64,000 bases of DNA from a virus. The notes beneath the pieces were generated by a model. That model was not told where the DNA came from and ran no database searches. It saw only the letters and a list, made by a program, of their open reading frames with translations. Of the stretch, positions 33,073-50,700 are shown piece after piece. Made by a program: the position numbers and the translations under genes. How positions within the stretch are numbered: position 1 is the first letter of the stretch; each line of letters opens with the position of its first letter. The DNA is taken from positions 1 to 64,000 of the IMG/VR virus record IMGVR_UViG_3300025437_000010. One strand, written 5' to 3'.

Positions 33073-35718
33073 ATGAGAGCAAAACAATTTCTTGAACTTT
33101 ACGAAGCACAGCAGCAATTATTTGAAGTGGAAATGTCTCCTTCAAATTTAAGAAAACTTGCCAAAGGCATTGAAGGTGCCAAAGTTGGTATTGAATTTGA
33201 AATGGTTGTTCCAAACGTAAGTATAGAAAACAATGACGATGATGATGATGAAGTGAATTTTCCGGAACCAGAAATGAATAACCTATATGAACCTGCAAGA
33301 AGCATAGATGACATTGTTGAGTTCTTTGATAACCCTGGTTACAATGACTCACGCACAATCACCAGACTTAGAAACATATTAGAGACTAAATACCGAGAAT
33401 GGGCTAAGCAGTTCGTTGATAAACAATGGGACAAGAATGGAAAAGAATATCTTCTAAATTGGATTAGAAAAAATGTTAGCCCAAACAAAATTGCTGATTA
33501 TTTAGATTTACCCGAAGATTTGTTAGGTGATCGCATTCCTTCTAAGGAAGATTATGAAGAAGTAGCGTATGAAGAATGGATGCGCCCCGGCAATGCGGCT
33601 GGACATAATTATTATGATGCGGCATATGAATCATTTCGCGACGGTGATGTATTGCCTAATTATTATTATGATGAAGATGATGAAGACTCTGATCCGGACG
33701 AAAATAAAGAATATATATTTGGTTTTGACAGCGATGATGCCGATGATGCTGATGAAGAAACATTCTTAGAAAGTCTCGGAATCAATGATATGGAAGATGT
33801 GTATCATAACTCATTGAATAGCAATCATGTATTATCATGGCCAAGCTGGACTGATCCACAACCTGAATATAACAGTAGTAGTAGTTCTTCTTCTGGCGGA
33901 TCAGAATCAATACAAGATACCGCATTAGGGTTCATGAAGGCTCTCGGCTATGATTCAATTGCATATTCTACTTCATATCACGGAACATATTATAAATGGG
34001 ACGGTAACGATTGGGAATATTATGGTAATAAAAAACCAAATGATTGTTATGCGGTTGAGCCGGATACCAGCATAACAAAAAAGTCCGATGAGGCAGGTTT
34101 GGAGTTTGTGAGTCCACCACTTCCTCCAGAACAAATTATGGCAGATATTAAAAATATAAAAACATGGGCTAATCGCATTGGAGCCTATACTAATAAATCT
34201 ACTGCCATTCATACTAATGTTAGCGTTCCTAATTATGATATAGGAAAAGTTGACTATGTTAAACTTGCTCTATTATCTGGCGACAAATATGTCTTAGATC
34301 AGTTTGGTCGGACATTTAATGATTATACCAGTTCTTCACTAGATATTATCAAAAATAGATCATCTCGGTTATCTAATGAACAAGTAGAAAAGTTGTTGGA
34401 TAAACTAAAAAACAACGTGGAAGAAATAGCCAGCAATGAAATTCATGGACCATATTCAATGAAAAAAATGGTATCTGTTAATACCGGCGATCCGGCTGGT
34501 TACAATAAGAAAAGCGGTTATGTAGAGTTTCGTGCTCCGGGTGGCGATTGGCTTGGGACTAACTATGAAAAAATTGAGAATACGATTCTAAGATATATCG
34601 TCGCTCTTGATGCTGCCGGTAATCCTGAAAAATACAAACGTGAATATACTAAAGCGTTGTATAAAATACTAAAACCCAAGACTGCCACAGATAACATGAG
34701 TCTATTTGCTCAATATATGGCTGGTAATATTACCAAAGAAGCATTAGTAAGTAAACTTAAGGTTAAGAAAAAACCTTCACAAACAAACGATAAAATTGCT
34801 TCCACACAGTCAGGTGAAGATGAAACTATGTATAGATTCAGCACTCGTGATGGTTCAGTTGCGCCTGCTTATGCATCTGGTTCTGATCCAATGGAAGCAT
34901 TTGATAGATTAACTGCACGTAATGCTGTATGGAGAACTATGCCTATTAGTAATGTTCTTACTCATGTTGCTGAACCCAGTCGAAGACAAACTCCTCCTGA
35001 TGTTCAACAATTATCATCACCTGAACCTGATTCAATACCTGAATTAACCCGTGAATATCAACAGTGGTGTGAGCAACAAGGTCTTCCATATGTGGCAACA
35101 GAATATCAGGACTTTGATGAACTAACCGATGCGCAACGTGATTGGATAATGCGCTTTAATGTTCGCTGGTCGGCTGCAGAAGAAGCGCGTGATGCGCCCC
35201 AACAACAATCATCTTCCGAAAGAAGATTGTATTCAGTAAGAAATACAGACACAGGTGACGTAATGCAAGTTTTTGCAGATAGCCCCCTTAACGCAATGAT
35301 CGGTGCAAGAAGTGAAAATCCCGACTTCCGTAATGCTTCTCTTCATGCAGCAATAACTGCACCTGAACCAGATCAAACTCCCCGCCACACAGAAGGCGAA
35401 TCATTATATCGGGTGACCAATAATAACACTGGTGAGCAAATAACTATTGCCGCAGGTTCATTACAAACTGCATATGGCAGAGCGCAAAGAAACAATCCAT
35501 CATGGCAAGGCTCCATACTGACTGCCCGTCAGATTGGCTCTGATGAAATTAGTCCAGAATCTCCGACATATGATGTGCGTGATACAGCAGGAACAATACA
35601 TACATTACAAATACAAGCCAACAACGCCGATGAAGCCAGAAGAATAGCAAGATTACGTTATCCCGAACTTGACAGTCTTCCGGACACCAGACTTCTTGCA
35701 ACAAGAAGATCATCATAA
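33073..35718 (+). CDS. Amidoligase-like cargo protein 2 (tandem paralogue)
   Basis: 881 residues, paralogous to the preceding gene. The first 30 codons are nearly identical in DNA, including the MRAKQFLELYEA leader. The amidoligase motifs are VGIEFEMVVP, GLEFVSPPLPP, AIHTNVSVPN and VEFRAPGGDWL. The CGLHMN block of copy 1 is altered to TAIHTN here, keeping the His. It also has an acidic insertion. The C-terminal part (about 585-881) contains four units that start Y(R/S/D)(F/V)xxx and carry a downstream alanine-rich helix, unlike those of copy 1 in sequence but alike in layout. It overlaps the next gene by one base. Confidence 0.68.
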   Translation: MRAKQFLELYEAQQQLFEVEMSPSNLRKLAKGIEGAKVGIEFEMVVPNVSIENNDDDDDEVNFPEPEMNNLYEPARSIDDIVEFFDNPGYNDSRTITRLRNILETKYREWAKQFVDKQWDKNGKEYLLNWIRKNVSPNKIADYLDLPEDLLGDRIPSKEDYEEVAYEEWMRPGNAAGHNYYDAAYESFRDGDVLPNYYYDEDDEDSDPDENKEYIFGFDSDDADDADEETFLESLGINDMEDVYHNSLNSNHVLSWPSWTDPQPEYNSSSSSSSGGSESIQDTALGFMKALGYDSIAYSTSYHGTYYKWDGNDWEYYGNKKPNDCYAVEPDTSITKKSDEAGLEFVSPPLPPEQIMADIKNIKTWANRIGAYTNKSTAIHTNVSVPNYDIGKVDYVKLALLSGDKYVLDQFGRTFNDYTSSSLDIIKNRSSRLSNEQVEKLLDKLKNNVEEIASNEIHGPYSMKKMVSVNTGDPAGYNKKSGYVEFRAPGGDWLGTNYEKIENTILRYIVALDAAGNPEKYKREYTKALYKILKPKTATDNMSLFAQYMAGNITKEALVSKLKVKKKPSQTNDKIASTQSGEDETMYRFSTRDGSVAPAYASGSDPMEAFDRLTARNAVWRTMPISNVLTHVAEPSRRQTPPDVQQLSSPEPDSIPELTREYQQWCEQQGLPYVATEYQDFDELTDAQRDWIMRFNVRWSAAEEARDAPQQQSSSERRLYSVRNTDTGDVMQVFADSPLNAMIGARSENPDFRNASLHAAITAPEPDQTPRHTEGESLYRVTNNNTGEQITIAAGSLQTAYGRAQRNNPSWQGSILTARQIGSDEISPESPTYDVRDTAGTIHTLQIQANNADEARRIARLRYPELDSLPDTRLLATRRSS

Positions 35719-37919
35719 TGAGAGCAAATGAATTCATAACAGAGTCATCGGGAGTAAGACTCAAAGATTTAGCCACTGTGAAAACTAATTTTCCGGATGC
35801 CGATTTCTGGCTTCAGCGCAAAGGTAGCGAGAAGTCTGTAGGCACACCAACCAAAGAGTTTTCACCAGAAAATATCGGCATCAAGGTAACGGCTACTGAT
35901 GTTCTTGATGCAAGATATCTGTATTACATGATGCAGCATATTCACAACATTGGATATTGGAAACAGTTTGCGAGTGGTGCATTGAGACTAGTCAATCTTC
36001 CATTACAACATGTTGCCAATCTTCCTCTTGGTATGAATGAATCTTTAAATGAAGATGAAAATGTTCAAATAAAAACTGACCTAACTTATACCGATAGCTA
36101 TCAGGGACAGGCAGACGGATTCATACTTGCATCTGCTAACGGTAAATCACCATGGGCGGATGAAGGAAATGGCTATTGTCCTAATGCAGTTGGTGGATTG
36201 GATTTTAGTATCTACGAAGGCAAGGCATTAATCAAAATGGTGCAGGTTAAGCCCGAATATCAACGCATGGGAATCGGATTGGCTTTAGTAAAAAGACTTG
36301 AACAAGAAGTTGGTAAGGGAAACATTGACTGGGGGATGATGACCGACACCGGAAAAGTATTACATGATAAGTATCAGAATTTAGATGAGGCGTTGCCAAC
36401 TTGGGCTAAAAAAGGTGAGTTTATAATTGAGTCAATCGGACCTGATACGATCTTTAATCAGGTGAAAAAAATTCACCATACCTTCCGAGATATAGAAGAA
36501 GGTGATTTACCTGACCGTATCTATTGGTTTAGTGAGTACAAGAAAAGTGAACTCCCGCTATCACTGCTTTATTTACATGAATTTTTTGTTGATGAGCAAT
36601 TGGTAGATGATTATGTAAAACTAATCCAATCTTCACCCAATACAATGCCGCCTATTGTATATGATCCTATCGCTGGTTCAATCATTGACGGTAATCATAG
36701 AGCCAATGCTTATGCTAAATTAGGCTATGACACTATACCCGCATACGTTGGGTTAACAAAATCTGACAGTTACGGTGAGCGTGAAAACGAAATTGACGAA
36801 GCATTTCCTTCTTGGGCTAAAAAAGGTGCATTGGCAGCAGGCGGCGCGGCTGCATTGGCGGCTGGTGGTGTAGCACTAAGGCATGCACAAGACGATAAGC
36901 CTCAAGTCAGATTTGAACTCCCAAATGCTAAATCAGCAGAGAACGCACTCCGCCAAGATGCAAAAATTCTCGCTCATACTATGTGGGGAGAAGCAAGAGA
37001 CCAAGGCATTGATGGTATGATTGCCATCGGCAACGTCATAAATAATCGTGCCAAGGATACGAAACATGCAAGAATGTTTGGACAAGGCATCAAAAATATT
37101 GCAACCAAACACAAGCAATTTAGTTGCTGGAATCCCAATGATCCAAACTTTAAGTATGCTAAAGAAATGGAAAAAATTGATCACATCGTCAACACAAAGC
37201 GCGCGCCGAACAACGAAGACTTCAATAAATGGTTATCAGAGTTTAAAAATACCGGAGAGTTTCTAGATTATAAAAAATGGCGTAAGAGTTTAGAACTGGC
37301 AACTAAAATTCTGTCTGGTCAACTTCCTGATCCAACTCATGGAGCAGTGTATTATCACACTAAAAACGTTCATCCTGAATGGGCAAAGAGTATGAAAAAA
37401 ATAGGCTCACTTGGTCAGCACGTTTTTTATTCTTTACCTACGGCTATAAAAGAAACTCATGAATTAGACGAATACAAAGTGGACAATGAAAATGGTTTGG
37501 GTCAAGTTCCATACAATGCTAATGTGGATTATATGGGATTACGAGTTTTAATGAAACCGAGTATATTTTTGAAACTTGCTCACAAATTAGAAAATCCCAG
37601 AAGCGTTGATCATATCGTGAATCACATTAAACAAGGTGGCGCATTGGGTTCTCCATTTTTGTCCATAGACATTCCCCGTGAATGGGAAGAGGGCGATTTC
37701 AAACATGATGCCAGAGTAAGCGGACACGAAGGACGCAATCGCATGATGGCTATTCAGCAAGTTGAAGGCGATGATCCAGTTGAAGTTCACCTATTTCCGC
37801 GTGGAGGAATGAGAGCCAGACATCTTACGTCAGAAATTATCAAGCATTTACAAGATAGTATGTTTGGACAAGACGGAAACTATGTGTGTGGAAATTTATT
37901 CCAATTAATGCAAAAATAA
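35718..37919 (+). CDS. Multi-enzyme cargo polyprotein: GNAT, ParB-like, SleB-like hydrolase
   Basis: 733 residues. Leader MRANEFITES is cut after E9 if the T4 rule applies. Region 10-112: unknown. Region 113-224: GNAT (VQVKPEYQRMGIGLALV). Region 239-361: ParB-like (SIIDGNHRANAYAKLG). Region 362-585: an Ala-rich segment, then a SleB-like cell-wall hydrolase (LAHTMWGEARDQG, HGAVYYHTKNVHPEWAK). Region 586-733: an unknown domain with SGHEGRNRMMA. (I/L)xE sites fall at every boundary: LNE112, LDE224, IIE238, IDE361, LDE585. Two are followed by the linker A(L/F)P(T/S)WAKKG. The enzymes could be released in the prohead. Confidence 0.72.
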   Translation: MRANEFITESSGVRLKDLATVKTNFPDADFWLQRKGSEKSVGTPTKEFSPENIGIKVTATDVLDARYLYYMMQHIHNIGYWKQFASGALRLVNLPLQHVANLPLGMNESLNEDENVQIKTDLTYTDSYQGQADGFILASANGKSPWADEGNGYCPNAVGGLDFSIYEGKALIKMVQVKPEYQRMGIGLALVKRLEQEVGKGNIDWGMMTDTGKVLHDKYQNLDEALPTWAKKGEFIIESIGPDTIFNQVKKIHHTFRDIEEGDLPDRIYWFSEYKKSELPLSLLYLHEFFVDEQLVDDYVKLIQSSPNTMPPIVYDPIAGSIIDGNHRANAYAKLGYDTIPAYVGLTKSDSYGERENEIDEAFPSWAKKGALAAGGAAALAAGGVALRHAQDDKPQVRFELPNAKSAENALRQDAKILAHTMWGEARDQGIDGMIAIGNVINNRAKDTKHARMFGQGIKNIATKHKQFSCWNPNDPNFKYAKEMEKIDHIVNTKRAPNNEDFNKWLSEFKNTGEFLDYKKWRKSLELATKILSGQLPDPTHGAVYYHTKNVHPEWAKSMKKIGSLGQHVFYSLPTAIKETHELDEYKVDNENGLGQVPYNANVDYMGLRVLMKPSIFLKLAHKLENPRSVDHIVNHIKQGGALGSPFLSIDIPREWEEGDFKHDARVSGHEGRNRMMAIQQVEGDDPVEVHLFPRGGMRARHLTSEIIKHLQDSMFGQDGNYVCGNLFQLMQK

Positions 37920-38370: not shown

Positions 38371-38844
38371 ATGTCTAATAAACCCACTATGACCATTGAC
38401 CAAGATGGACATAAAGAATGGCGTCTGGATGGCAAACTCCATCGCGAAGATGGACCTGCTTTTGAATATGCAGATGGTACTAAGAAATGGTATCTGAATG
38501 GCAAACTCCATCGTGAAGATGGGCCTGCTGTTGAATATACAAATGGCGAGAAGCAATGGTATCTAAATGGAAAACTCCATCGCGAAAATGGACCCGCTAT
38601 TGAATATGCAAATGGCACCAAGATATGGTACCTGAATGGCAAACGCCATCGCGAAGATGGACCTGCTGTTGAATATGCAGATGGTTCCAAGCGTTGGTAT
38701 TTAAATGACAAACGCCATCGCGAAGATGGACCTGCTGTTGAATATGCAGATGGTTCCAAGTGGTGGTATCTAAATGGAGAAAAAATAGATCAATTGGTTT
38801 TCTGGGTTACCACTAAAGAGCGCGAGCAACAGAAAACTTCTTGA
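38371..38844 (+). CDS. LHREDGPA-repeat protein, copy 2
   Basis: 157 residues with five 23-residue repeats ((L/R)HRE(D/N)GPAxEYxxGxKxWYLN) and the tail DQLVFWVTTKERE shared with the protein at 11356. A GAGGAAATT site precedes the ATG. The two genes are 27 kb apart, both in early units with TTGACA promoters nearby, and differ in repeat number (five versus three), suggesting repeat gain or loss. Function unknown. The next early promoter begins within its last codons. Confidence 0.65.
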   Translation: MSNKPTMTIDQDGHKEWRLDGKLHREDGPAFEYADGTKKWYLNGKLHREDGPAVEYTNGEKQWYLNGKLHRENGPAIEYANGTKIWYLNGKRHREDGPAVEYADGSKRWYLNDKRHREDGPAVEYADGSKWWYLNGEKIDQLVFWVTTKEREQQKTS

Positions 38845-39291: not shown

Positions 39292-39573
39292 ATGGGAGAT
39301 ATCTTTAAAGTTATTGGTGACGTAGGATTTCCCATTGCCGCTGCATTTGGTGCCGGATATTTTGTATTCCTAACTCTCAAATTTATTCTTGCAGGAGTTA
39401 CCAGTAGCGTTAAGAACATGGCTGGTATTATTACTGCACTTGATAACCGCGTAAAAACTATGAATCATGATGTCATTCGTATTGACACGGTTGTTTCAAA
39501 CGCGCTTGGGCTAAGTCCTGACGTTGAGCGTATTGGTCGTTCTGACGGAAAAAATGATGCCAGGAGAGATTGA
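39292..39573 (+). CDS. Small membrane protein, first of a pair
   Basis: 93 residues with one N-terminal membrane segment (FPIAAAFGAGYFVFLTLKFI, about 13-33) and a charged helical C-terminal half. The pattern GFPIxAAxGxGYFVF is shared with the next gene, so they are paralogues. The topology resembles small holin-like or YvrJ-type proteins. A GTGAGGATTT site precedes the ATG. It lies immediately upstream of the curli-like genes and could belong to that cassette. Confidence 0.55.
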   Translation: MGDIFKVIGDVGFPIAAAFGAGYFVFLTLKFILAGVTSSVKNMAGIITALDNRVKTMNHDVIRIDTVVSNALGLSPDVERIGRSDGKNDARRD

Positions 39574-39660
39574 TAAAAATACACTTAGCAATTAAATAAC
39601 GATCCACTTTACAGTCCATACTCGCAATAAAAAAGATGTATTAAATAAGAAGAAAAATAA

Positions 39661-39999
39661 ATGAGCATAGAAATAGCAGAATTGGTCAACAAGTATGGGT
39701 TTCCTATCATTGCCGCTGGTGGAATGGGCTATTTTGTATTTCATGTATGGGAATGGGCAACTAAAGAAGTTAAACCAGTTCTCAGTGAGACAAATACTGT
39801 CCTGATTGCGTTAATTGATCGTATACGTATGTTGGATAACGATCTAATACGTCTCAATCAAAAAGTCAATACCGTATTGCATTTGCGCGGAAAAACGATT
39901 GAGCATGAACGTGTTGAGGCTGAAAAAATTATTAATCAGCCACGAGTTCGCCATAAAGACACGGAAGAATCTCAAGAAGCAGCATCAGGCAATAGTTAG
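39661..39999 (+). CDS. Small membrane protein, second of a pair
   Basis: 112 residues, a paralogue of the preceding protein: KYGFPIIAAGGMGYFVFHVW membrane segment near 11-30, then a coiled helix (LIALIDRIRMLDNDLIRLNQK) and a charged tail. It is 8 nt upstream of the csgF-like gene. Possibly a holin, pinholin or spanin-like accessory, or an inner-membrane partner of the secretion system; the sequence does not decide. Confidence 0.5.
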   Translation: MSIEIAELVNKYGFPIIAAGGMGYFVFHVWEWATKEVKPVLSETNTVLIALIDRIRMLDNDLIRLNQKVNTVLHLRGKTIEHERVEAEKIINQPRVRHKDTEESQEAASGNS

Positions 40000-40007
40000 G
40001 TAAAATA

Positions 40008-40463
40008 ATGAAAACCATAACAACACTAATGCTTTTTGGTATGCTGTTTATGAGTGAAACTGCGCATGCTGATCAAATAGTTCAGCAATTCAAAGACCCA
40101 TCATTCAATGGTATTAACTGGTCTAACCATGTTTTATCAATTGAATCAATAGAGGCGTCCAATAAATCAGCAAATACGAATGCACTTGCATCTGCACAGG
40201 CGGCTGCGGCAAATGCGGCTGCTAACACACCTCTTGCAAAATTTGTGTCTCTATTTGAATCTCAGGTATATTCACAATTGGCAACGCAATTATCAAATAA
40301 TCTGTTTTCAACAAGTGGACCATCATCAAATGCTGGAACATTTAACTTGGCTGGAAATAGTATTAGTTACGTAAAAACAAACAATGATGTTACATTGACT
40401 GTAGTAGATACTTCCGGAAACAAAACTATAGTTACAGTTCCGATAGCAACATTTGCATTTTGA
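40008..40463 (+). CDS. csgF: CsgF-like curli assembly factor
   Basis: 151 residues. The signal peptide ends near residue 21 (ETAHA before Asp). The mature N-terminus (IVQQFKDPSFNGINWSNHVL) fits CsgF QFxNPxFGG, the segment that inserts into the CsgG pore. Then come a linker rich in Ala and Asn, LAKFVSLFESQVYSQLATQL (CsgF helix FxxxIQSQIL), and a C-terminal beta domain (VTLTVVDTSGNKTIVTV). CsgF couples the CsgG channel to fibre nucleation outside the cell. The next gene is csgG-like, 11 nt downstream, which strongly supports the call. Confidence 0.85.
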   Translation: MKTITTLMLFGMLFMSETAHADQIVQQFKDPSFNGINWSNHVLSIESIEASNKSANTNALASAQAAAANAAANTPLAKFVSLFESQVYSQLATQLSNNLFSTSGPSSNAGTFNLAGNSISYVKTNNDVTLTVVDTSGNKTIVTVPIATFAF

Positions 40464-40474
40464 AGGAATAGAGT

Positions 40475-41320
40475 GTGAATAAACAGATTGCTTTACCATT
40501 ATTAATTCTATCAGCTTTATCCCTTTCTGGATGTATTGGTGCTATTAGTCCACGACTAAACAAAGACGTTGAAATCATGCGTGAGAAGGCAAGAATAGAA
40601 GGTTTCGCAAATCCAAAAATATTTGTTAATTTACCTGAATTGGATGGTCCTGCTATTCCTATTGCAGTATATAGTTTTACAGATAAAACTGGCCAACGTA
40701 AAAATTCATCCAGTGTTAGTAGTTTTAGCACGGCAGTTACTCAAGGTGCAGATGCATACTTAGTAAAAACTCTCTCAGATGTAGGAAACGGAAAATGGTT
40801 TAAGCCTGTTGAGCGCGTGGGCATTGAAAGCCTTATAAAAGAGCGTCAGCTTATACGTCAAATGCGTGAATTGGAATTCGGTGATAAGGCACCTCCATTG
40901 CCACCTCTTATGGTGTCAGGTCTTATTATTGAAGGTGGAATTATTGATTATAATAGTGACACCAAAACTGGAGGGAACGGGGTTCGCTACCTTGGTATAG
41001 GTCCGAATACTCAATATAGCCAAGATATGGTTGTCATAAATATGCGTCTCGTGTCTACGCAAACTGGGGAAGTCTTAGATAGCGTAACCGTAACAAAAAC
41101 TATTATCTCAACATCAGAAGGTTTAACTGCATTTAAATTTTTTGATTTAGGAACGCATGCTTTTGAACTTGACGCTCAACAGACAGCGAATGAACCGGGA
41201 AGTTATGCTATTCGTTCAGCAATTGAAGTTGGTGTAGTAGAACTAATCAAACATGGTGAAAAGAAAAAATTATGGCACTATAAAACTAATACGTTACCAA
41301 CCAATAAGGAATTAAAATAA
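40475..41320 (+). CDS. csgG: CsgG-like outer-membrane curli secretion channel
   Basis: 281 residues, near the CsgG length (277). GTG start with an AAGGAATAG site. A lipoprotein signal with lipobox LSGC (Cys20) anchors it to the outer membrane. CsgG features: PAIPIAVYSFTDKTGQRK, SFSTAVTQGADAYLVKTL, WFKPVERVGIESLIKERQLIR and PLMVSGLIIEGGIIDY. CsgG forms a nonameric pore for unfolded curlin. The operon order is csgF, csgG, curlin. No CsgE or CsgC is visible. A phage-encoded CsgG must be exported by the host Sec/Lol system. Confidence 0.92.
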   Translation: MNKQIALPLLILSALSLSGCIGAISPRLNKDVEIMREKARIEGFANPKIFVNLPELDGPAIPIAVYSFTDKTGQRKNSSSVSSFSTAVTQGADAYLVKTLSDVGNGKWFKPVERVGIESLIKERQLIRQMRELEFGDKAPPLPPLMVSGLIIEGGIIDYNSDTKTGGNGVRYLGIGPNTQYSQDMVVINMRLVSTQTGEVLDSVTVTKTIISTSEGLTAFKFFDLGTHAFELDAQQTANEPGSYAIRSAIEVGVVELIKHGEKKKLWHYKTNTLPTNKELK

Positions 41321-42141
41321 TGAAAGCAATAAAAATAATAAAATACGCATTAATTCTTAGTTCGCTATTTGTATCCGATGCTACATTTGCTCAGTCACTT
41401 ACGGCGGAATCTAATCCAACAAGTGTCCCATCTGCCGTTTTACCAACTCTACCAAATCCTCCTGCAATTATCGCCTCATCTCCTAATGAGCAGGCAGCAT
41501 CTACGTTGGACACAACTAACCAAGTATATATCAACCAGTCAGGATTTAATGTCAATGTTAATATCCAACAAACTGGTGTATCAGACTTGATTGGAAGCCT
41601 ATCATATCCAACTTTTCTACGTGGAGACAATCAAGTATTAACCGTGATTCAGACTGGAAACACAAACAATCTACAGTTAGGAATTATTGGTAACATTGGC
41701 GCAGGTGCCGGAACTACAGCAACTATTCAACAACTCGGCAATGGCAACTATGCTAATATTCAATGCGGAACTGGCAAAAACGATCCAAATTGTAATGGAT
41801 TAAATTTGAATGATAAATTTAATGGTAATTTCAATACTCTTAACTTTCATGGATCAGCCGCAAATATCACTCAAACAGTTGATATTGAAGGTAACAACAA
41901 CTACACTAATATCTTTTCCAACTCTCCAAATTCTTCACAGACATTATTGTTCAATGGTGAAAACAACACAATTAACGTAAATCAGACTGATGCAGGTGGA
42001 AACTATGGTCACAGTTTATTTGCAAATGTCATCGGAAGCAATAATACGCTTACTGTTCAACAATATGGTGCTTCAGAAACCGTAATCAATATTCAAAGCA
42101 CTGGCTCAAATGGCATCTTTAATATTAAAACCGGTCATTAA
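41320..42141 (+). CDS. Curlin-repeat (CsgA/B-like) secreted protein
   Basis: 273 residues. Signal peptide to about 24 (ATFA before Gln). A linker rich in Pro/Ser (25-65) is followed by curlin-type units with alternating N/Q-rich strands: VYINQSGFNVNVNIQQTG, VLTVIQTGNTNNLQL, ATIQQLGNGNYANI, TINVNQTDAGGNYG, LTVQQYGASETVINI. Two cysteines sit in a mid-loop (CGTGKNDPNC). Spacing is less regular than in CsgA and long insertions are present. It is the likely substrate of the adjacent CsgG/F channel. Coupled to csgG by a one-base overlap and overlapping the next gene by 32 nt. Confidence 0.78.
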   Translation: MKAIKIIKYALILSSLFVSDATFAQSLTAESNPTSVPSAVLPTLPNPPAIIASSPNEQAASTLDTTNQVYINQSGFNVNVNIQQTGVSDLIGSLSYPTFLRGDNQVLTVIQTGNTNNLQLGIIGNIGAGAGTTATIQQLGNGNYANIQCGTGKNDPNCNGLNLNDKFNGNFNTLNFHGSAANITQTVDIEGNNNYTNIFSNSPNSSQTLLFNGENNTINVNQTDAGGNYGHSLFANVIGSNNTLTVQQYGASETVINIQSTGSNGIFNIKTGH

Positions 42142-43279
42142 TTTAATTGGATTACTATGCTTGCTAATTGCCACCCCGGCGTTAGCAAGCATAGGGTCTA
42201 TTACCAATTTCAAAGGTGCTGGACAAATTAAACGTGGTTCCGCATCCATTCCTGCTAATCAAAATTCTGGCATTGAGAAAATGGACATTGTATCTACTAA
42301 CTCGCAAGGTAAGATAAAAATAACATTCATTGATGCAACTACTGTCAACATTACTGAAAACAGTAGACTCGTGATTGATGATTTTGTGTTTGATAGTAAA
42401 AATTCATCAAAGGGTAAATTGGGTCTTAAAGTGGCGTTAGGAACTATAAGATATACATCCGGCGCGCTGGCTCATGGAAATCCATCAGGCATTAACATAC
42501 GCACTCCTACGGCAACTATAGCGGTTCGTGGAACAGATTTTGTGATGTCCGTTGACGAAACTGGAGAATCTACGGTTATTCTTGTTCCAAATTGCTACGA
42601 TGATAAAGACATAACAAAAACTGAGTTTGATTGCTCATCCGGTGTTATTGAAGTCATAACTGCGGCTGGAATAGTAACTTTGAACAAGCCATTTCAGGCT
42701 ACTGTAGTCCAGAATTCATTTATACCACCATCACCTCCTATAAAAATTACTACTGCACTAAAAGTAATGAATAATAATATACAGATTTCTCCGCTTGCAA
42801 CTGATGATGGAAAAAGTTTAATTAAATTTGCAAAGAATGCAGCCACAAAATATGCCAACCCATCTAAGGCAATAGCAGATTCAAATAAAGACCCCACAAC
42901 AAATTCAAATGATAGCGCCGAAGAAGCAGAACTCGCCGTGCAACAAAAATCTTCAAGTCAAATCAATGATCAAAAAGATACACTTATACCCAAAATTACT
43001 GTTTCTGGTAGAGTGATATATACGAATGTATCACCTACCTATGTCAAACAGGTTCAGGAGGGGTGGGCATATGCGCGTATGTCAAGTGATAAAAATCAAG
43101 TCGTTGCAATATGGGTTGATCTTAAAACCGATACACAAATTATTTCGTCACAAGAAGGATTAATTGACTTCTACGATTTTGTGAATGCTAAGTATCCAAC
43201 TTCGGGATCAGGTAAAGCAACTGGTAACATAAATATAATACAAAATGGAGCAGTTCCACCAACTAATAGCGGAAAATAA
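42110..43279 (+). CDS. Exported FecR-domain protein
   Basis: 389 residues. The signal peptide is about 26 residues (ATPALA before Ser). A FecR domain (about 35-165) has the features KMDIVSTNSQGKIKITFIDATTVNI and INIRTPTATIAVRGTDFVM. An Asn/Ser-rich linker leads to a C-terminal region with GRVIYTNVSPTYVKQVQEG. Free-standing FecR-domain proteins bind surface or periplasmic partners; here there is no sigma factor or TonB receptor nearby. It lies between curlin and a CHASE2 cyclase and could be the periplasmic ligand or sensor for the CHASE2 domain. Confidence 0.78.
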   Translation: MASLILKPVINLIGLLCLLIATPALASIGSITNFKGAGQIKRGSASIPANQNSGIEKMDIVSTNSQGKIKITFIDATTVNITENSRLVIDDFVFDSKNSSKGKLGLKVALGTIRYTSGALAHGNPSGINIRTPTATIAVRGTDFVMSVDETGESTVILVPNCYDDKDITKTEFDCSSGVIEVITAAGIVTLNKPFQATVVQNSFIPPSPPIKITTALKVMNNNIQISPLATDDGKSLIKFAKNAATKYANPSKAIADSNKDPTTNSNDSAEEAELAVQQKSSSQINDQKDTLIPKITVSGRVIYTNVSPTYVKQVQEGWAYARMSSDKNQVVAIWVDLKTDTQIISSQEGLIDFYDFVNAKYPTSGSGKATGNINIIQNGAVPPTNSGK

Positions 43280-43293
43280 TAAAGGATAGAGTC

Positions 43294-45351
43294 ATGAAAA
43301 AATTAAAAAAAATACTAATAAATCCGTGGTTGGCTCTCCTGACATTTGCAATATTGCTTATAGTTAAACTATCAAATCCATATTTAATAGATGCAATGAA
43401 ACTTAAATTTTATGACTATCTAATGTTAAGTAAACCAATTCACAGTGATCAGATTGTAATTGCAAATATTGGTGAAAGGGCATTAGAGAAATACGGACAA
43501 TATCCATTTCCCAGAGATACATATGCAAAAATCGTCAACAATCTATATGATAATCATCATGCTGGTTTAGTTGGCAGCACCATAATGTTTCCAGAAAAGG
43601 ATAGGTTTGGCGGAGATGATGTGTTTGCTAAGTCGCTTACAGAGCATCCAGTGGTTCTAAGTCAAACTGTTTCTGCCGATTGCACACGCAACAATAGTTC
43701 AACCCGTAAAACTGGCGTTGCAATAGTAGGTGATGGCAAGCCAACAGAATTTTTACCAAATTATCCATGTGTTCTTGATAATATTTCAGTGTTGCAAGAG
43801 TCTGCTGTAGGTGTTGGTATAACATCAACGCTTCCTGAAACCGATGGTGTTGTTCGTCGCGTTCCTATGCTGGCAACATCAAAAGGAGATTATTATCCTT
43901 CGTTTGCATTAGAAATGCTACGTGCTGCTACAGGTGATCCAAGTTATCAGGCAAAAATAAATGAGACCGGCATTGAGGCAGTTCGTATTCCACAGTTTGG
44001 TAAAATTTCCACTGACGAATATGGTCGCGTGTTTGTTAATCCGAATTATGTATTCTCATCGTTTGAAGTAGGCGGGAATATTCCGCATCTCGGTGGTAAG
44101 ATCGTTCTACTCGGTGTGACTGCGAACGGTGTTGCAAACCCTGTAGCAACGCCGTCTGGTGCCCGAATGCCCCATCAGGTTCAGGCCAGCATTCTTCAGA
44201 CTCTGATAAATCAGGATTCTGTATCAATTCCGAATTGGGTTGAATTGGTTGATCTTCTGGCATTTTTTATTCTTTCAGTTGCTGTTATTGGAATGTCAAA
44301 CTTACGTTATTCTATTATATGGATCGCAATATTATTAACTGGATATATTTATGCTCCCTTCTATATGTATATACATAATAAAATATTATTTGATGTGTCA
44401 TTCAATGTACTGGCAGTTCTGATCATTTATATACATGTTTATTCAGTAAAGTTCATCAGTGAATTTCTACAGAAACAACAAATCAAGAAACAGTTCGGCA
44501 CATATCTAAGTCCTGATCTGGTTGCCCAATTGCAACGTCAGCCTGAATTGCTGCAATTGGGTGGCACTGAACAAGAACTTTCAATCATGTTTACGGATGT
44601 TCGTGGATTCACGACGATTTCAGAACATTATGGTAAGAACGTGCAGGGCTTGACAAAAATTATGAATCGGTATATGACTGCTATGACCAAAGCAATTTTA
44701 GAAAATAAAGGCACTTTGGACAAATACATCGGAGACGCTCAGATGGCGTTTTGGAATGCGCCGGTCAGCAATGAACAACATGCTCTGGATGCCGTGCGTA
44801 CTGCCTTTCAGATGTTAAAATCTCTTGAGGAATTTAATTATGAAGTCACCAAAGAAGGAGTCCCTGCTTTTGGAATGGGTCTGGGAATCAATACTGATAC
44901 CGTTGTTGTTGGTAATATGGGAAGTGATCAGCGTTTTGACTATACTTGCTTGGGAGACGGTGTTAATCTTGCGTCACGGTTGGAAGGGCAGTCAAAGCCT
45001 TATGGAGTCAGAATCATCATTGGTCCAAAGACCGCACAATATGTCAAAGACCGATACCAAATCGTAGAACTTGATCTTATTGCCGTTAAAGGTAAAACTG
45101 AGCCAGTAAGAATATATACGGTTTTGGAACAATTTAAAAAGATTGATGAAAATGCACATAATATGATTTTAAGTGCTTATAGGCTCGGTGCATGGAAAAG
45201 AGCACTGGTCATGATACAAACGCGTGGAAACATGTGGAATGGGCAACTGGATAATTATTACAAGATGCTTGAAGAGCGGATTTTAGAAATTCAAAAAAAT
45301 CCGCCCGCTCCCAAAGATTGGGACGGGGTATATCGCGCTACATCAAAATAA
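43294..45351 (+). CDS. CHASE2-domain class III adenylate cyclase
   Basis: 685 residues. TM1 near 11-29, CHASE2 sensor in the periplasm (about 30-310), then three membrane segments (about 317-335, 338-356, 364-386) and a cytoplasmic class III cyclase domain (about 427-610). Catalytic residues are all present: metal Asp435 (IMFTDVRGF) and Asp481 (KYIGDAQM), adenine-selecting Lys477 and Thr551, and transition-state Asn558 and Arg562 (GVNLASRLEG). It should make cAMP. AAAGGATAGAG precedes the ATG. A full-length receptor cyclase is very unusual in a phage. Confidence 0.9.
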   Translation: MKKLKKILINPWLALLTFAILLIVKLSNPYLIDAMKLKFYDYLMLSKPIHSDQIVIANIGERALEKYGQYPFPRDTYAKIVNNLYDNHHAGLVGSTIMFPEKDRFGGDDVFAKSLTEHPVVLSQTVSADCTRNNSSTRKTGVAIVGDGKPTEFLPNYPCVLDNISVLQESAVGVGITSTLPETDGVVRRVPMLATSKGDYYPSFALEMLRAATGDPSYQAKINETGIEAVRIPQFGKISTDEYGRVFVNPNYVFSSFEVGGNIPHLGGKIVLLGVTANGVANPVATPSGARMPHQVQASILQTLINQDSVSIPNWVELVDLLAFFILSVAVIGMSNLRYSIIWIAILLTGYIYAPFYMYIHNKILFDVSFNVLAVLIIYIHVYSVKFISEFLQKQQIKKQFGTYLSPDLVAQLQRQPELLQLGGTEQELSIMFTDVRGFTTISEHYGKNVQGLTKIMNRYMTAMTKAILENKGTLDKYIGDAQMAFWNAPVSNEQHALDAVRTAFQMLKSLEEFNYEVTKEGVPAFGMGLGINTDTVVVGNMGSDQRFDYTCLGDGVNLASRLEGQSKPYGVRIIIGPKTAQYVKDRYQIVELDLIAVKGKTEPVRIYTVLEQFKKIDENAHNMILSAYRLGAWKRALVMIQTRGNMWNGQLDNYYKMLEERILEIQKNPPAPKDWDGVYRATSK

Positions 45352-46279: not shown

Positions 46280-47971
46280 GTGTCATATGTTGATGCCATC
46301 CTTTCAATAAAGGATGATAAAATACATGTGGTAGAGCGAAGCCCTGAAGGCAATCGGATATACAAAGAATATCCAACAAATTATGTTTTTTATTACCCTG
46401 ACCCAAAGGGAAAGCATCGTTCTATTTTTGGTAATCCACTTAGTAGATTTTCAACTCGCAAGAGAAATGAGTTTGAAAAGGAAAAGCGGATTCATGGTAA
46501 CAAAAAACTATTTGAAAGTGATGTTAATGCGGTATTTAGATGCTTGGCAGACAACTATCTCAATGTAGAACCTCCCAAGTTACATACTTGCTTTTTTGAT
46601 ATTGAGACGGACTTTGATCCTGAAAAGGGTTTCAGTCCGACAGACGATCCATTTAATCCAGTCACGGCGATTTCTTTGTATTTGGATTGGAAAGATCAGT
46701 TAATCACTCTTGCTATTCCACCAAAACACATGACCGATGAAACGGCGCAAGAGTTAGTGCGTGACTTTCCTAACACGTTTCTGTTTCGTTCTGAAATTGA
46801 AATGTTTGAGACATTCTTCCAACTGATTGAAGATGCCGATATTCTCACTGGGTGGAACTCAGAGGGATACGATATTCCTTATTGTGTAAATCGGGTAACC
46901 CGAATTATGTCTAAGGATGATACACGTAAGTTCTGCCTTCTTGGTCAACTTCCGAAGATTCGCACATATGAACGATTTGGTAAAGAAGAAACTACCTACG
47001 ATTTAGTCGGGCGAGTTCATATGGACTATTTGCAGTTATATAAAAAGTATAACTACGAATCGCGCCATAGTTATTCTCTTGATGCAATTGGTGAAATGGA
47101 AGTAGGTGAACGTAAGACTCAATATGAGGGTTCACTTGACCAGTTATACAATCAAGATTTCAAAACCTTTATTGAATATAACCGACAGGATACTATGCTT
47201 ATGGTGAAGATTCATCGTAAGACTAAGTTTCTTGAATTAGCAAACGCACTGGCACATGAAAACACAGTGTTGTTACCAACGGCTATGGGTTCGGTGGCGA
47301 TGATCGAAATGGCGGTCATCAATGACGCACATTCTCGTGGATTTGTCGTTCCCGATAAGAATAGGAAAGATGGACCAAGCGATGACCAACAGGCGGCTGG
47401 TGCATATGTTGCCACACCACAGGTTGGAATGCACGAATGGGTGGGAGCAGTGGATATTAACTCACTGTATCCTTCTGACATTCGTGCATTGAACATGTCA
47501 CCAGAAACCATCGTTGCTCAGGTTCGTCAGACTCTTACCGAACAGTATATGGCTGACAAAACCAAAAAAATCAAGCAAAGCAAAAAACAGAGCAAAAGAA
47601 AGGATAGCACTACTGACAAAGAAATAACTGCTGCTTTGTTATGGGAAAATCTTTTTGGATCGCTTGAATATACTGCGATCATGAATCAGGAACGTGGCAC
47701 TATATTGATCGTTGACTATGAAGACGGAAGATCAGTAGAAATGTCTGCTGCTGAAATCTGGAAGATGATATTTGACAGCAATAATCCATATATTCTCTCT
47801 GCGAATGGCACGATCTTTACCTATGAAAGGGAAGGAGTCATCCCCGGTTTGCTATCAAGATGGTATTCAGAACGTAAGGCTACACAAAAGCAAGCCAAGA
47901 CGGTCAGAACTTTAAACTCTGGTATTGAAATCAATTCAAAATTAGCCGAAAAACTTAAAAAAATACTTTAA
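46280..47971 (+). CDS. 43A: DNA polymerase family B, N-terminal part (gp43A)
   Basis: 563 residues from GTG 46280. It carries the 3'-5' exonuclease motifs (FDIET with Asp107/Glu109; GWNSEGYDIP with Asp198; YNRQD with Asp304) and polymerase motif A (GAVDINSLYPSD, Asp392). It continues to the fingers (GVIPGLLSRWYSERKATQKQ) and ends LAEKLKKIL. Motifs B and C are missing and lie in the second piece at 49164. Together the parts give about 981 residues, against 898 in T4 gp43. A homing endonuclease gene separates the parts, as in the split gp43 of some Aeromonas T4-like phages. Confidence 0.92.
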   Translation: MSYVDAILSIKDDKIHVVERSPEGNRIYKEYPTNYVFYYPDPKGKHRSIFGNPLSRFSTRKRNEFEKEKRIHGNKKLFESDVNAVFRCLADNYLNVEPPKLHTCFFDIETDFDPEKGFSPTDDPFNPVTAISLYLDWKDQLITLAIPPKHMTDETAQELVRDFPNTFLFRSEIEMFETFFQLIEDADILTGWNSEGYDIPYCVNRVTRIMSKDDTRKFCLLGQLPKIRTYERFGKEETTYDLVGRVHMDYLQLYKKYNYESRHSYSLDAIGEMEVGERKTQYEGSLDQLYNQDFKTFIEYNRQDTMLMVKIHRKTKFLELANALAHENTVLLPTAMGSVAMIEMAVINDAHSRGFVVPDKNRKDGPSDDQQAAGAYVATPQVGMHEWVGAVDINSLYPSDIRALNMSPETIVAQVRQTLTEQYMADKTKKIKQSKKQSKRKDSTTDKEITAALLWENLFGSLEYTAIMNQERGTILIVDYEDGRSVEMSAAEIWKMIFDSNNPYILSANGTIFTYEREGVIPGLLSRWYSERKATQKQAKTVRTLNSGIEINSKLAEKLKKIL

Positions 47972-47973
47972 GT

Positions 47974-47998
47974 GATAAATACCCTATACGGAGGTATT
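47974..47998 (+). promoter_or_regulatory. Late promoter with RBS-hiding hairpin (HNH endonuclease)
   Basis: GATAAATA at 47974-47981 overlaps AATACC (47978-47983), which pairs with GGTATT (47993-47998) over a 9-nt loop. The GGAGG ribosome site (47990-47994) runs into the right arm. The ATG is at 47999. The layout matches the T4 I-TevI early-off/late-on control. Confidence 0.65.
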
Positions 47999-49177
47999 AT
48001 GAACTTAATTGATATAGAAACCATTATGAGAGACATGTGCAGTATAAAACATGAACACTCATTTAAACGATACCTAAAATTGATTGAAATTTACAGAAAA
48101 TTAAATTTATCCAAGAAAAGTTTTGGAAAAGGTGAGATTGAAGCGCATCACATTCTTCCAAGTAAAATATGGCAAGAATATAAAAAAGAAAAATGGAATA
48201 TAGTGAACCTACCCGTCCGTGCTCATGTTATCGCGCATTATCTACTTTATAAATTTTTACCAAAATCGGAGTGTGTGTTTGCGTTTAATCAGATGCACAG
48301 AGTTTCCGTAAAAACAGGAAAGTTAAACGCCAGATTATATGCCAAAGCGAGAATTGAATTGGCGCAGTTGGTAAGCAAAGTCAATTCCGGCAGAAAATGG
48401 TCAGATGAACAGCACAAATTGCATAGAAAAATTCATTGTGGTAAAAACACATATCGCAATATCACATCTGGAGAGTGTAAAAAGTTTATAGTAGGAGATG
48501 AACCGGCAGGATGGGAGCCGTTCCAGACTGGTCGGACAAAGAGTATTGCAGCAAAAGAAAAAATGGGAGAGTCAATGTCTGGAAGAATATGGCAATATCA
48601 TTCGGAATCTAAAGAGGTTAAATTTGCAAACTTTTTAATAGATGGGTTTACGAAGGGAATACCGCCATGGTTTGTCTATGATCATGCAGAAATTACGAAA
48701 ACCTACAAATGGGCATATAATCCGGATACAAACGAAGTTATTCGGTGCGCAGAAATTGATATTCCCGTTGGGTTTGAATTGGGGCGGGACCCGTCTTATG
48801 TTAACAAAGGATTTGAAAAAATAAATCAGTCCGGTTTATGTAGGATGCTGGACATTGAAGACAAATGTTATACGCTAGTATCAGAAGATATTTTACCTAA
48901 CCCACGATATGTTAAACATGGTGCTTGTGTTGACGATATTTATGTGATATTATACAAAGACAGTATTTATTATTCTTGGGTTGATGTAGAACGAGAACAC
49001 CCAGAATTGCCGAAAATGAACAAAAAGAGAGATATCTCTCTACTTGACTACGTTGTGCCTAAAAAGCATTTTAACCAAACACCAGATAGGCAACGTTTTT
49101 GTGAAATGCATCATGGTAAAACATTTGGAGAAATTGGAATATCTATGCGAAAACTAAAGGAAAATGACAATGATTGA
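47999..49177 (+). CDS. HNH homing endonuclease inside the split polymerase gene
   Basis: 392 residues from ATG 47999 after GGAGG; the in-frame GTG at 47972 lies in the promoter. The HNH core is EAHHILPSKIW with NIVNLPVRAHVIAHYLLYK near 48-95. The C-terminal part is long, with repeated W/Y-containing modules (AKEKMGESMSGRIWQYH; TYKWAYNPDTNEVIRCA) that look like NUMOD-type DNA-recognition units. It overlaps the start of gp43B by 14 nt. It probably cuts intact or intronless gp43 in competing phages. It is free-standing, not within the group I intron. Confidence 0.78.
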   Translation: MNLIDIETIMRDMCSIKHEHSFKRYLKLIEIYRKLNLSKKSFGKGEIEAHHILPSKIWQEYKKEKWNIVNLPVRAHVIAHYLLYKFLPKSECVFAFNQMHRVSVKTGKLNARLYAKARIELAQLVSKVNSGRKWSDEQHKLHRKIHCGKNTYRNITSGECKKFIVGDEPAGWEPFQTGRTKSIAAKEKMGESMSGRIWQYHSESKEVKFANFLIDGFTKGIPPWFVYDHAEITKTYKWAYNPDTNEVIRCAEIDIPVGFELGRDPSYVNKGFEKINQSGLCRMLDIEDKCYTLVSEDILPNPRYVKHGACVDDIYVILYKDSIYYSWVDVEREHPELPKMNKKRDISLLDYVVPKKHFNQTPDRQRFCEMHHGKTFGEIGISMRKLKENDND

Positions 49178-50700
49178 TACAGAATATATCAACACCCTAA
49201 TAAAGACAGAAGACGTTGATGGTCTTGCCGCGTATATGAAAAAATATAAATTGCGATTATCCGCAGACAACAAAATTATTGGTGATGCGGATGTTGTTGC
49301 TGAATCTTATGCTTACTGGGATAAAAGACAACTCGTGCGAAAAATTCTCCTAAACTCTGCGTTAATTCCTAGCGCCCTTGTGTAGTGATACACACTGAAT
49401 AACCCGTCTAATTGCTGGAAACTCTCATTGCGTAATGGCAGAGACAATCAGCAGCCAAGTAGAAATAGATTATTTCTAAAGGTTCAACGACTAGCCCATA
49501 GTGGCGTAAGCAATAAGCCAATGATTGCTGAAACGGCGGGGGTCTATACTTAATAGATCGTGATATAGTCTGTTCTAATATGAAAATATTAGCAGCATTT
49601 TAAATGCGGATGTGAAATTGCTAATCACATTGAACACTAAAGATGGTGCACTTCTAAACGAACACTGCCGATTCTATGATAAACGAATCGGTCAGTCAGT
49701 AACTCTTTCTGGTCGTCAAATTGTTCGCCACATGATGAGCAAGATCAATGAGATTATTGAAGGGACTTATTCTCACGAAGGAAGTTCAATCGTATATGGA
49801 GATACTGACTCCTGCTATTTCTCTGCATATCCAATTCTTAAGAGTCAAATTGATTCTGGTGAAGTTGAATGGGACAAAGACACCTGCGTTGCATTGTATG
49901 ATAACATAGCAGAACAGACCAATGAAAGTTTTCCTGCATTCATGGAGAAAGCATTTCATTGTCCACGCAAGAATGGTGCAGTCATTAAGGCTGGTCGCGA
50001 ATTGATTGGTGATCGTGCTATCTTTATTGCCAAGAAGATTTATGCCATCAATATTTTTGATCTTGAAGGCGATAGACTTGATCTGATTATTGACGAGAAT
50101 GATGCTATCAAAAAAGGCGTAAATATCGGTTACGGTAAGGTAAAGGCTATGGGTGTCGCATTGAAGCGGTCGGATACGCCAAAATACATTCAAGAGTTTT
50201 TAATGGATGTATTGTGTATGGTAATTCAACAAGGCAAACAGCGCGAGGAAGTTATTCAAAAAATAAAAACGTTTAAAACCTATCTTTCTGGTCAAGATAG
50301 TTGGACCAAAGGTAATCCCAAGTCTGTAAATAAACTAACGTATCATACTGCAAAATTTGAAAAAACTGGACAGTGTGGAGTTGGTCATGCCAAGGCAGCA
50401 ATCAATTACAATTATCTGCGTAGAATGCACGGTGATAACTACAGCCAAAAAATTGTTGATGGCATGAAGGTAATTGTATGTTCACTTAAACCCAATCCTC
50501 TCGGATTTACATCTATTGCATACCCAACCGATGAATTAAGATTGCCTCAATGGTTTTTGGATTTGCCATTTGATGACAAGGACATGGAACGCAAATTGAT
50601 AGATGAAAAAATTGAGAACTTGCTCGGCGTCCTAAAATGGGACTTACGAATTGATACTGATACAAACAGCACCTTCGCAGATTTGTTCAATTTTGGTTAA
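49164..50700 (+). CDS. 43B: DNA polymerase family B, C-terminal part (gp43B), intron-split
   Basis: Coding sequence is 49164-49362 joined to 49643-50700, giving 418 residues. Exon 1 encodes the fingers up to motif B (RQLVRKILLNSA); splicing restores Y67-G68 and ALLNEHCRFYDKRIGQS. Motif C is IVYGDTDSCYF (Asp120, Asp122), followed by KKIYAIN and the thumb. Without splicing the frame stops at 49385. ATG 49164 follows AAAGGAA inside the end of the endonuclease gene. The catalytic aspartates are divided between 43A (motif A) and 43B (motif C), so both polypeptides must associate to be active. Confidence 0.9.
49363..49642 (+). ncRNA. Group I intron (280 nt, no ORF)
   Basis: The intron interrupts the Tyr codon of polymerase motif B (T at 49362, AT at 49643-49644). 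The 5' exon ends in U and the intron ends in G, as group I requires. GCGU at the exon end can pair with GCGC at 49372-49375, giving the U-G splice pair. The conserved core is recognisable: AATCAGCAGCCAAG, then GGTTCAACGACTAG and GATATAGTCT, the P7 strands of IA-type introns as in T4 td. It contains no endonuclease. Removing exactly this segment restores the polymerase frame. Confidence 0.9.

Follow-up and report, generated by a model that had tools for sequence, protein, structure and literature searches.

The DNA analysed here was found to carry a phage cassette for type VIII (curli) secretion. Within the window, i.e. the whole 64,000-nucleotide stretch under study, which belongs to a 110,198-base IMG/VR record, the unit TM1-TM2-CsgF-CsgG-CUR1-FecR-cyclase occupies positions 39292 to 45351 on the plus strand. 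This unit is larger than the three genes noted at first. The original prediction had assigned genes for CsgF, CsgG, and a curlin-repeat protein to the interval 39292-42141, and all three genes are located inside it; however, position 39292 is the start of TM1 and not of CsgF, and the cassette extends to position 45351. The seven cassette genes and two genes outside the cassette are as follows.

35718-37919, plus strand: large fusion protein with an endolysin-type domain (residues 403-574), outside the cassette (phrog_938, 9.5e-19).
39292-39573, plus strand: TM1, small inner-membrane protein (phrog_18771, 4.5e-33; hydropathy).
39661-39999, plus strand: TM2, paralogue of TM1 with 26-27% identity to it (phrog_18771, 1.4e-31).
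40008-40463, plus strand: CsgF, secreted coupling factor (PF10614, 8.3e-15; phrog_35372, 1.7e-31; alignment of relatives).
40475-41320, plus strand: CsgG, outer-membrane lipoprotein pore (PF03783, 5.7e-49; E. coli CsgG, 5.6e-44; lipobox LSGC).
41320-42141, plus strand: CUR1, secreted curlin-repeat protein, the presumed fibre subunit (five weak PF07012 matches; beta-solenoid model; viral curlin structures).
42110-43279, plus strand: FecR-domain protein with a signal sequence, presumed to be periplasmic (PF04773, 6.7e-12; phrog_37870, 3.9e-66).
43294-45351, plus strand: CHASE2 sensor fused to an adenylate/guanylate cyclase (PF05226, 4.6e-36; PF00211, 1.3e-20; catalytic motifs).
46280-47971, plus strand: N-terminal part of the DNA polymerase, outside the cassette and used to place the phage (phrog_262, 2.3e-113).

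Profile searches confirmed the families proposed for CsgF and CsgG, each of which scored above the curated Pfam cut-off; for CsgF, 55.5 bits were obtained against a cut-off of 25.8 bits. Alignment of relatives revealed that the mature N-terminus of CsgF retains a QFKDPSFNG stretch, and a comparison of CsgF with PDB sequences returned no match. Residues 10-271 of CsgG aligned to the E. coli CsgG of solved structures, and the lipidated-type cysteine of its lipobox is located at position C20. The tight packing described for csgF, csgG, and the curlin gene, an 11-nt gap followed by a one-base overlap, was found as predicted; furthermore, the start of the FecR gene overlaps the end of CUR1 by 32 nt. 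The cyclase motifs FTDVRGFT (433), YIGDAQMAF (478), and GDGVNLASRLE (554) are intact.

The curlin assignment of CUR1 was only partly borne out by profile searches. A six-frame examination of the entire 110,198-base record yielded five weak matches to PF07012, all within the CUR1 ORF, but no Pfam match exceeded the cut-off for the curlin repeat. The protein following the signal sequence consists of 18% Asn, 7% Gln, and 11% Gly, with Lys and Arg together below 2%. In an AlphaFold model built with 23 relatives, CUR1 forms a beta-solenoid; the mean pLDDT is 81, most repeats exceed 90, and pTM is 0.72. Among viral structures, those most similar to the model carry the name 'Curlin associated' (E = 1.1e-10), and comparison with PDB folds gave no solved structure below 0.001. 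Of 80 loci taken from bacterial genome records, 72 had ORFs next to csgG that matched a phage-curlin profile, and CUR1 was found in nearly all relatives.

The genes encoding CsgF, CsgG, and the secreted curlin-type protein proved to be intact and real, and they are under purifying selection. Values of dN/dS determined against four relatives were about 0.02-0.23 where computable, and about 0.09-0.15 for CUR1, with dS near saturation. Identity to a 361-kb contig reached 92% for TM1 and 91% for TM2, the most conserved cassette genes, as compared to 76% for CsgG and 68% for CUR1.

The phage itself was placed by the N-terminal part of its DNA polymerase, which showed 87% identity to a 360,683-base contig, 80% to a 258,859-base contig, and 64% to contigs of 344-364 kb. 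The nearest polymerases of cultured phages, namely Phosso, PA5oct-like phages, and Atu_ph07 (phages of Sinorhizobium, Pseudomonas, and Agrobacterium), were just 45-47% identical. Judged by this gene, the carrier belongs to a T4-like jumbo-phage lineage, and the 110-kb record is presumably a fragment of a larger genome. The polymerase gene (46280-50700) is interrupted by a group I intron (Rfam RF00028 at 49353-49592, 86.8 bits), and a homing-endonuclease ORF is present at 47972-49177. On the other side of the cassette, the fusion protein encoded at 35718-37919 begins with MRANEFITES, which resembles the capsid-targeting leaders of T4 internal proteins; few other ORFs in the record fit this leader-like pattern. 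The ORF at 38371-38844 encodes a tandem-repeat protein with units like HREDGPAVEYADGSKxWYLNGK and DUF6745/MORN-like matches.

Since the cassette sits between the endolysin-type fusion gene and the DNA polymerase gene, its earlier assignment to a late region is not established. When the T4 rule for late genes was applied, TATAAATA did not occur in exact form near the cassette, nor was it overrepresented in the window; a scan for promoters and terminators returned only chance numbers.

The csgG gene itself is common in bacteria, and host curli genes might have been mis-joined to phage sequence; otherwise, no support for such an artefact was found. Identical junctions were present in the independent contigs L004-L010, where the arrangement between the endolysin-type gene and the DNA polymerase gene is repeated, and a mis-joined host contig is therefore rejected. 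The cassette is also found in the cultured phages HTVC008M and Melnitz. Furthermore, a CsgG tree of 98 rows united all phage sequences, together with L092, L096, L120, L163, and L093, on one branch with a support of 100/99, apart from 61 cellular sequences. We thus assign a negligible probability to the artefact.

The sequences L092, L096, L120, and L163 are filed under metagenome-assembled genomes of Bacteroidota or Planctomycetota, with their CsgG inside the phage branch. Three of them carry the TM pair, and hence they seem to be phage contigs that were assigned to bacterial bins. L093, a long branch of uncertain placement, derives from a 706-kb Hyphomonas contig, also from a metagenome-assembled genome, which encodes CsgF-CsgG-curlin-FecR-cyclase without the TM pair (L093:9327-15350). 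Possibly, this Hyphomonas either supplied the phage module or acquired it.

Curli genes of phages have been described before. CsgF and CsgG were reported from pelagimyophages, with CsgE described as non-essential (PMC7029224); the same two proteins were reported from Melnitz along with a proposal of a lysis pore (PMC9004378). CsgF, CsgG, CsgA/B, FecR, cyclase, and a 'histidine kinase' were reported from podoviral and myoviral pelagiphages (PMC9599517), and a contig of a T4-like Bacteroidetes virus contains curli genes (PMC7198788). With the cassette annotated in HTVC008M and Melnitz and phage curli described in these four papers, the earlier claim that no phage curli system was known fails. 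A search of 50,697 phage records for CsgG returned matches in seven, i.e. two HTVC008M records, four Melnitz strains, and one unannotated 1.5-kb 'Salmonella phage'. The last of these (OR851715.1, 292-951) encodes a CsgG relative with 40% identity and is possibly host DNA. A report on curli in jumbo phages was not found in the literature searched, with many journals and bioRxiv outside its coverage.

The order CsgF-CsgG-curlin-FecR-cyclase of the pelagiphage-type T8SS module is present here in a phage genome and matches that of HTVC008M and Melnitz. HTVC008M with its relatives and Melnitz also share the two TM genes, so that gene set and order are alike. In contrast, CsgG of the window is only 50% identical to that of HTVC008M and 47% to that of Melnitz over the matched parts, the DNA polymerase of the window is nearest to jumbo phages, and the second curlin gene of the pelagiphages and Melnitz has no counterpart here. 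For Melnitz, PMC9004378 denies csgA and csgB, whereas the Melnitz record annotates two curlin-associated repeat proteins. The E. coli csgBAC/csgDEFG-type operon shares the CsgG, CsgF, and curlin families with the window; unlike this bacterial operon, the window lacks CsgE and adds FecR, the cyclase, and the TM pair. The absence of CsgE noted previously was confirmed, as no PF10627 match up to an E-value of 10 was obtained in the 110-kb record, which is perhaps a fragment.

The second curlin gene, which is frequent elsewhere in the interval between FecR and cyclase, was not found in the record; it is also missing in 25 of 69 non-redundant full-context loci, defined as those with CsgF, CsgG, FecR, and cyclase plus enough flank. 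In many relatives (L006, L012, L023, L045, and others), such a second protein with curlin repeats is encoded, and its N-terminus varies: it comprises a PA14 module in L012 and HTVC008M and other shared modules in most others. These proteins resemble a fibre subunit with shuffled adhesin heads. The N-terminal half of the L023 protein was poorly resolved in a structural model (mean pLDDT 62.5).

The TM pair distinguishes phage loci from loci in bacterial genome records. TM1 has one hydrophobic stretch, spanning about residues 4-40, and its conserved tail is of cytoplasmic type. Loci were fetched from IMG/VR with three seeds, namely CsgG of the window, CsgG of HTVC008M, and the TM proteins, and both TM1 and TM2 were present in all 69 full-context phage curli loci. 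The result was the same for loci seeded with CsgG only and hence free of TM bias, where two TM genes were found in 30 of 30 (21 and 9). Likewise, all 74 HTVC008M-seeded loci in which csgF is preceded by 700 nt or more, counted with redundancy kept, contained both. The position of the pair varies: it may precede csgF, follow the cyclase in convergent orientation, lie between FecR and a cyclase gene that is reversed, or be split around csgF. By comparison, just three of the 80 loci from bacterial genome records carried the pair (L096, L120, and L163), each with a CsgG that falls within the phage branch, and 190 alphaproteobacterial genomes yielded one marginal, partial match (6.4e-4). Among the 50,697 phage records, TM1 and TM2 were restricted to six records of HTVC008M and Melnitz, and full-length relatives of the cyclase were found in only the same six. 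The pair is a candidate, open to experimental test, for the component that is specific to phage curli systems.

Kinases were considered as an identity of TM1 and TM2 and rejected, with no kinase-domain match in 20 members of about 80-135 amino acids each. By these tests, the myoviral genes at the position of the 'histidine kinase' of PMC9599517 are therefore not kinases, which suggests that this label is wrong, at least for myoviruses.

Some contigs carry TM genes without curli genes. The 155 TM-seeded loci included csgF or csgG in 100 cases, other cassette genes only in 41, and none in 14, most of which end near the TM genes. In L203:3717-5316, which carries the TM pair, and L260:50-2761, which carries TM2, the next gene is the one that follows the cassette in the window, then the DNA polymerase gene, with no curli genes between them. 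The leader of the post-cassette gene is conserved in both; hence, the boundaries of the cassette are sharp. L203 and L260 are contigs of 7.9 and 4.6 kb from different metagenomes, and curli genes may sit elsewhere in these genomes.

The conserved combination of a pore, a coupling factor, and a substrate favours the view that infected cells export a curlin fibre. We consider it fairly probable that the cassette encodes a functional type VIII secretion system belonging to the phage. During infection, CsgG would form a pore in the host outer membrane, CsgF would sit at the outer opening of this pore, and CUR1 would be exported through it and assemble on the surface of the infected cell into a fibre resembling curli. 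FecR, in the periplasm, and the CHASE2 cyclase may act as a sensor reporting the state of the envelope or of export as cAMP. TM1 and TM2 might be, and here we are guessing, a phage-specific inner-membrane pair required by the system. The benefit would most likely be an altered surface of the infected cell, which may stick to neighbours or particles or block other phages. Superinfection exclusion, aggregation, and lysis as uses of phage curli were already proposed in print. PA14 or other modules on the second curlins of relatives are expected of an adhesive fibre, and an adhesive role would fit the PA14-bearing second subunits. Several observations stand against export: CsgE, the usual periplasmic gate, is missing; CUR1 remains below the curlin cut-off and resembles no solved structure; the second curlin is absent; and no clumping was seen with Melnitz-infected cells (PMC9004378).

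As proposed for Melnitz (PMC9004378), CsgG and CsgF could instead form a gated outer-membrane pore which times or completes lysis, with TM1 and TM2 as a holin/antiholin-like pair. Weak matches to the PHROG holin phrog_4898 were obtained for 11 of the 20 TM members at E-values up to 0.1 (best 1.1e-4), but holin profiles are readily matched by short membrane proteins, and a Pfam holin match was not found among the 20 members. Endolysin-type genes are located a few genes upstream in the window, and, by reading of the sequence, such a gene is also present in L203, where the TM pair persists without curli. However, rearranged loci keep the TM pair with curli and, by inspection only, no lysis gene was evident alongside; furthermore, the substrate CUR1 is under purifying selection. 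Control of lysis is regarded as unlikely.

The missing CsgE gate would also agree with an open CsgG channel that admits larger nutrients or cofactors, as already suggested in print (PMC7029224, PMC9599517). Such an uptake pore leaves CsgF, the conserved CUR1, and the second curlins unexplained, and the data argue against a pore without substrate. Among export, lysis, and uptake, the latter explains least, and we judge it to be quite improbable.

Coming back to fibre export, phage curli might even constitute a distinct kind of secretion system, in which TM1 and TM2 form an inner-membrane component of their own that bacterial curli lack and, together with the CHASE2 cyclase, control the outer-membrane pore, thereby coupling fibre export to the infection cycle and possibly to lysis. 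We put this forward tentatively and with more doubt than belief.

Three points appear to be new: the jumbo-phage lineage as carrier, the TM pair in all full-context phage loci but in so few 'bacterial' ones, and the cassette-free site in two relatives. Relatives that possess TM genes and are free of the cassette at that site provide natural controls. Phage curli are thus not confined to phages of marine SAR11 and OM43 but also occur in a T4-like jumbo-phage lineage.
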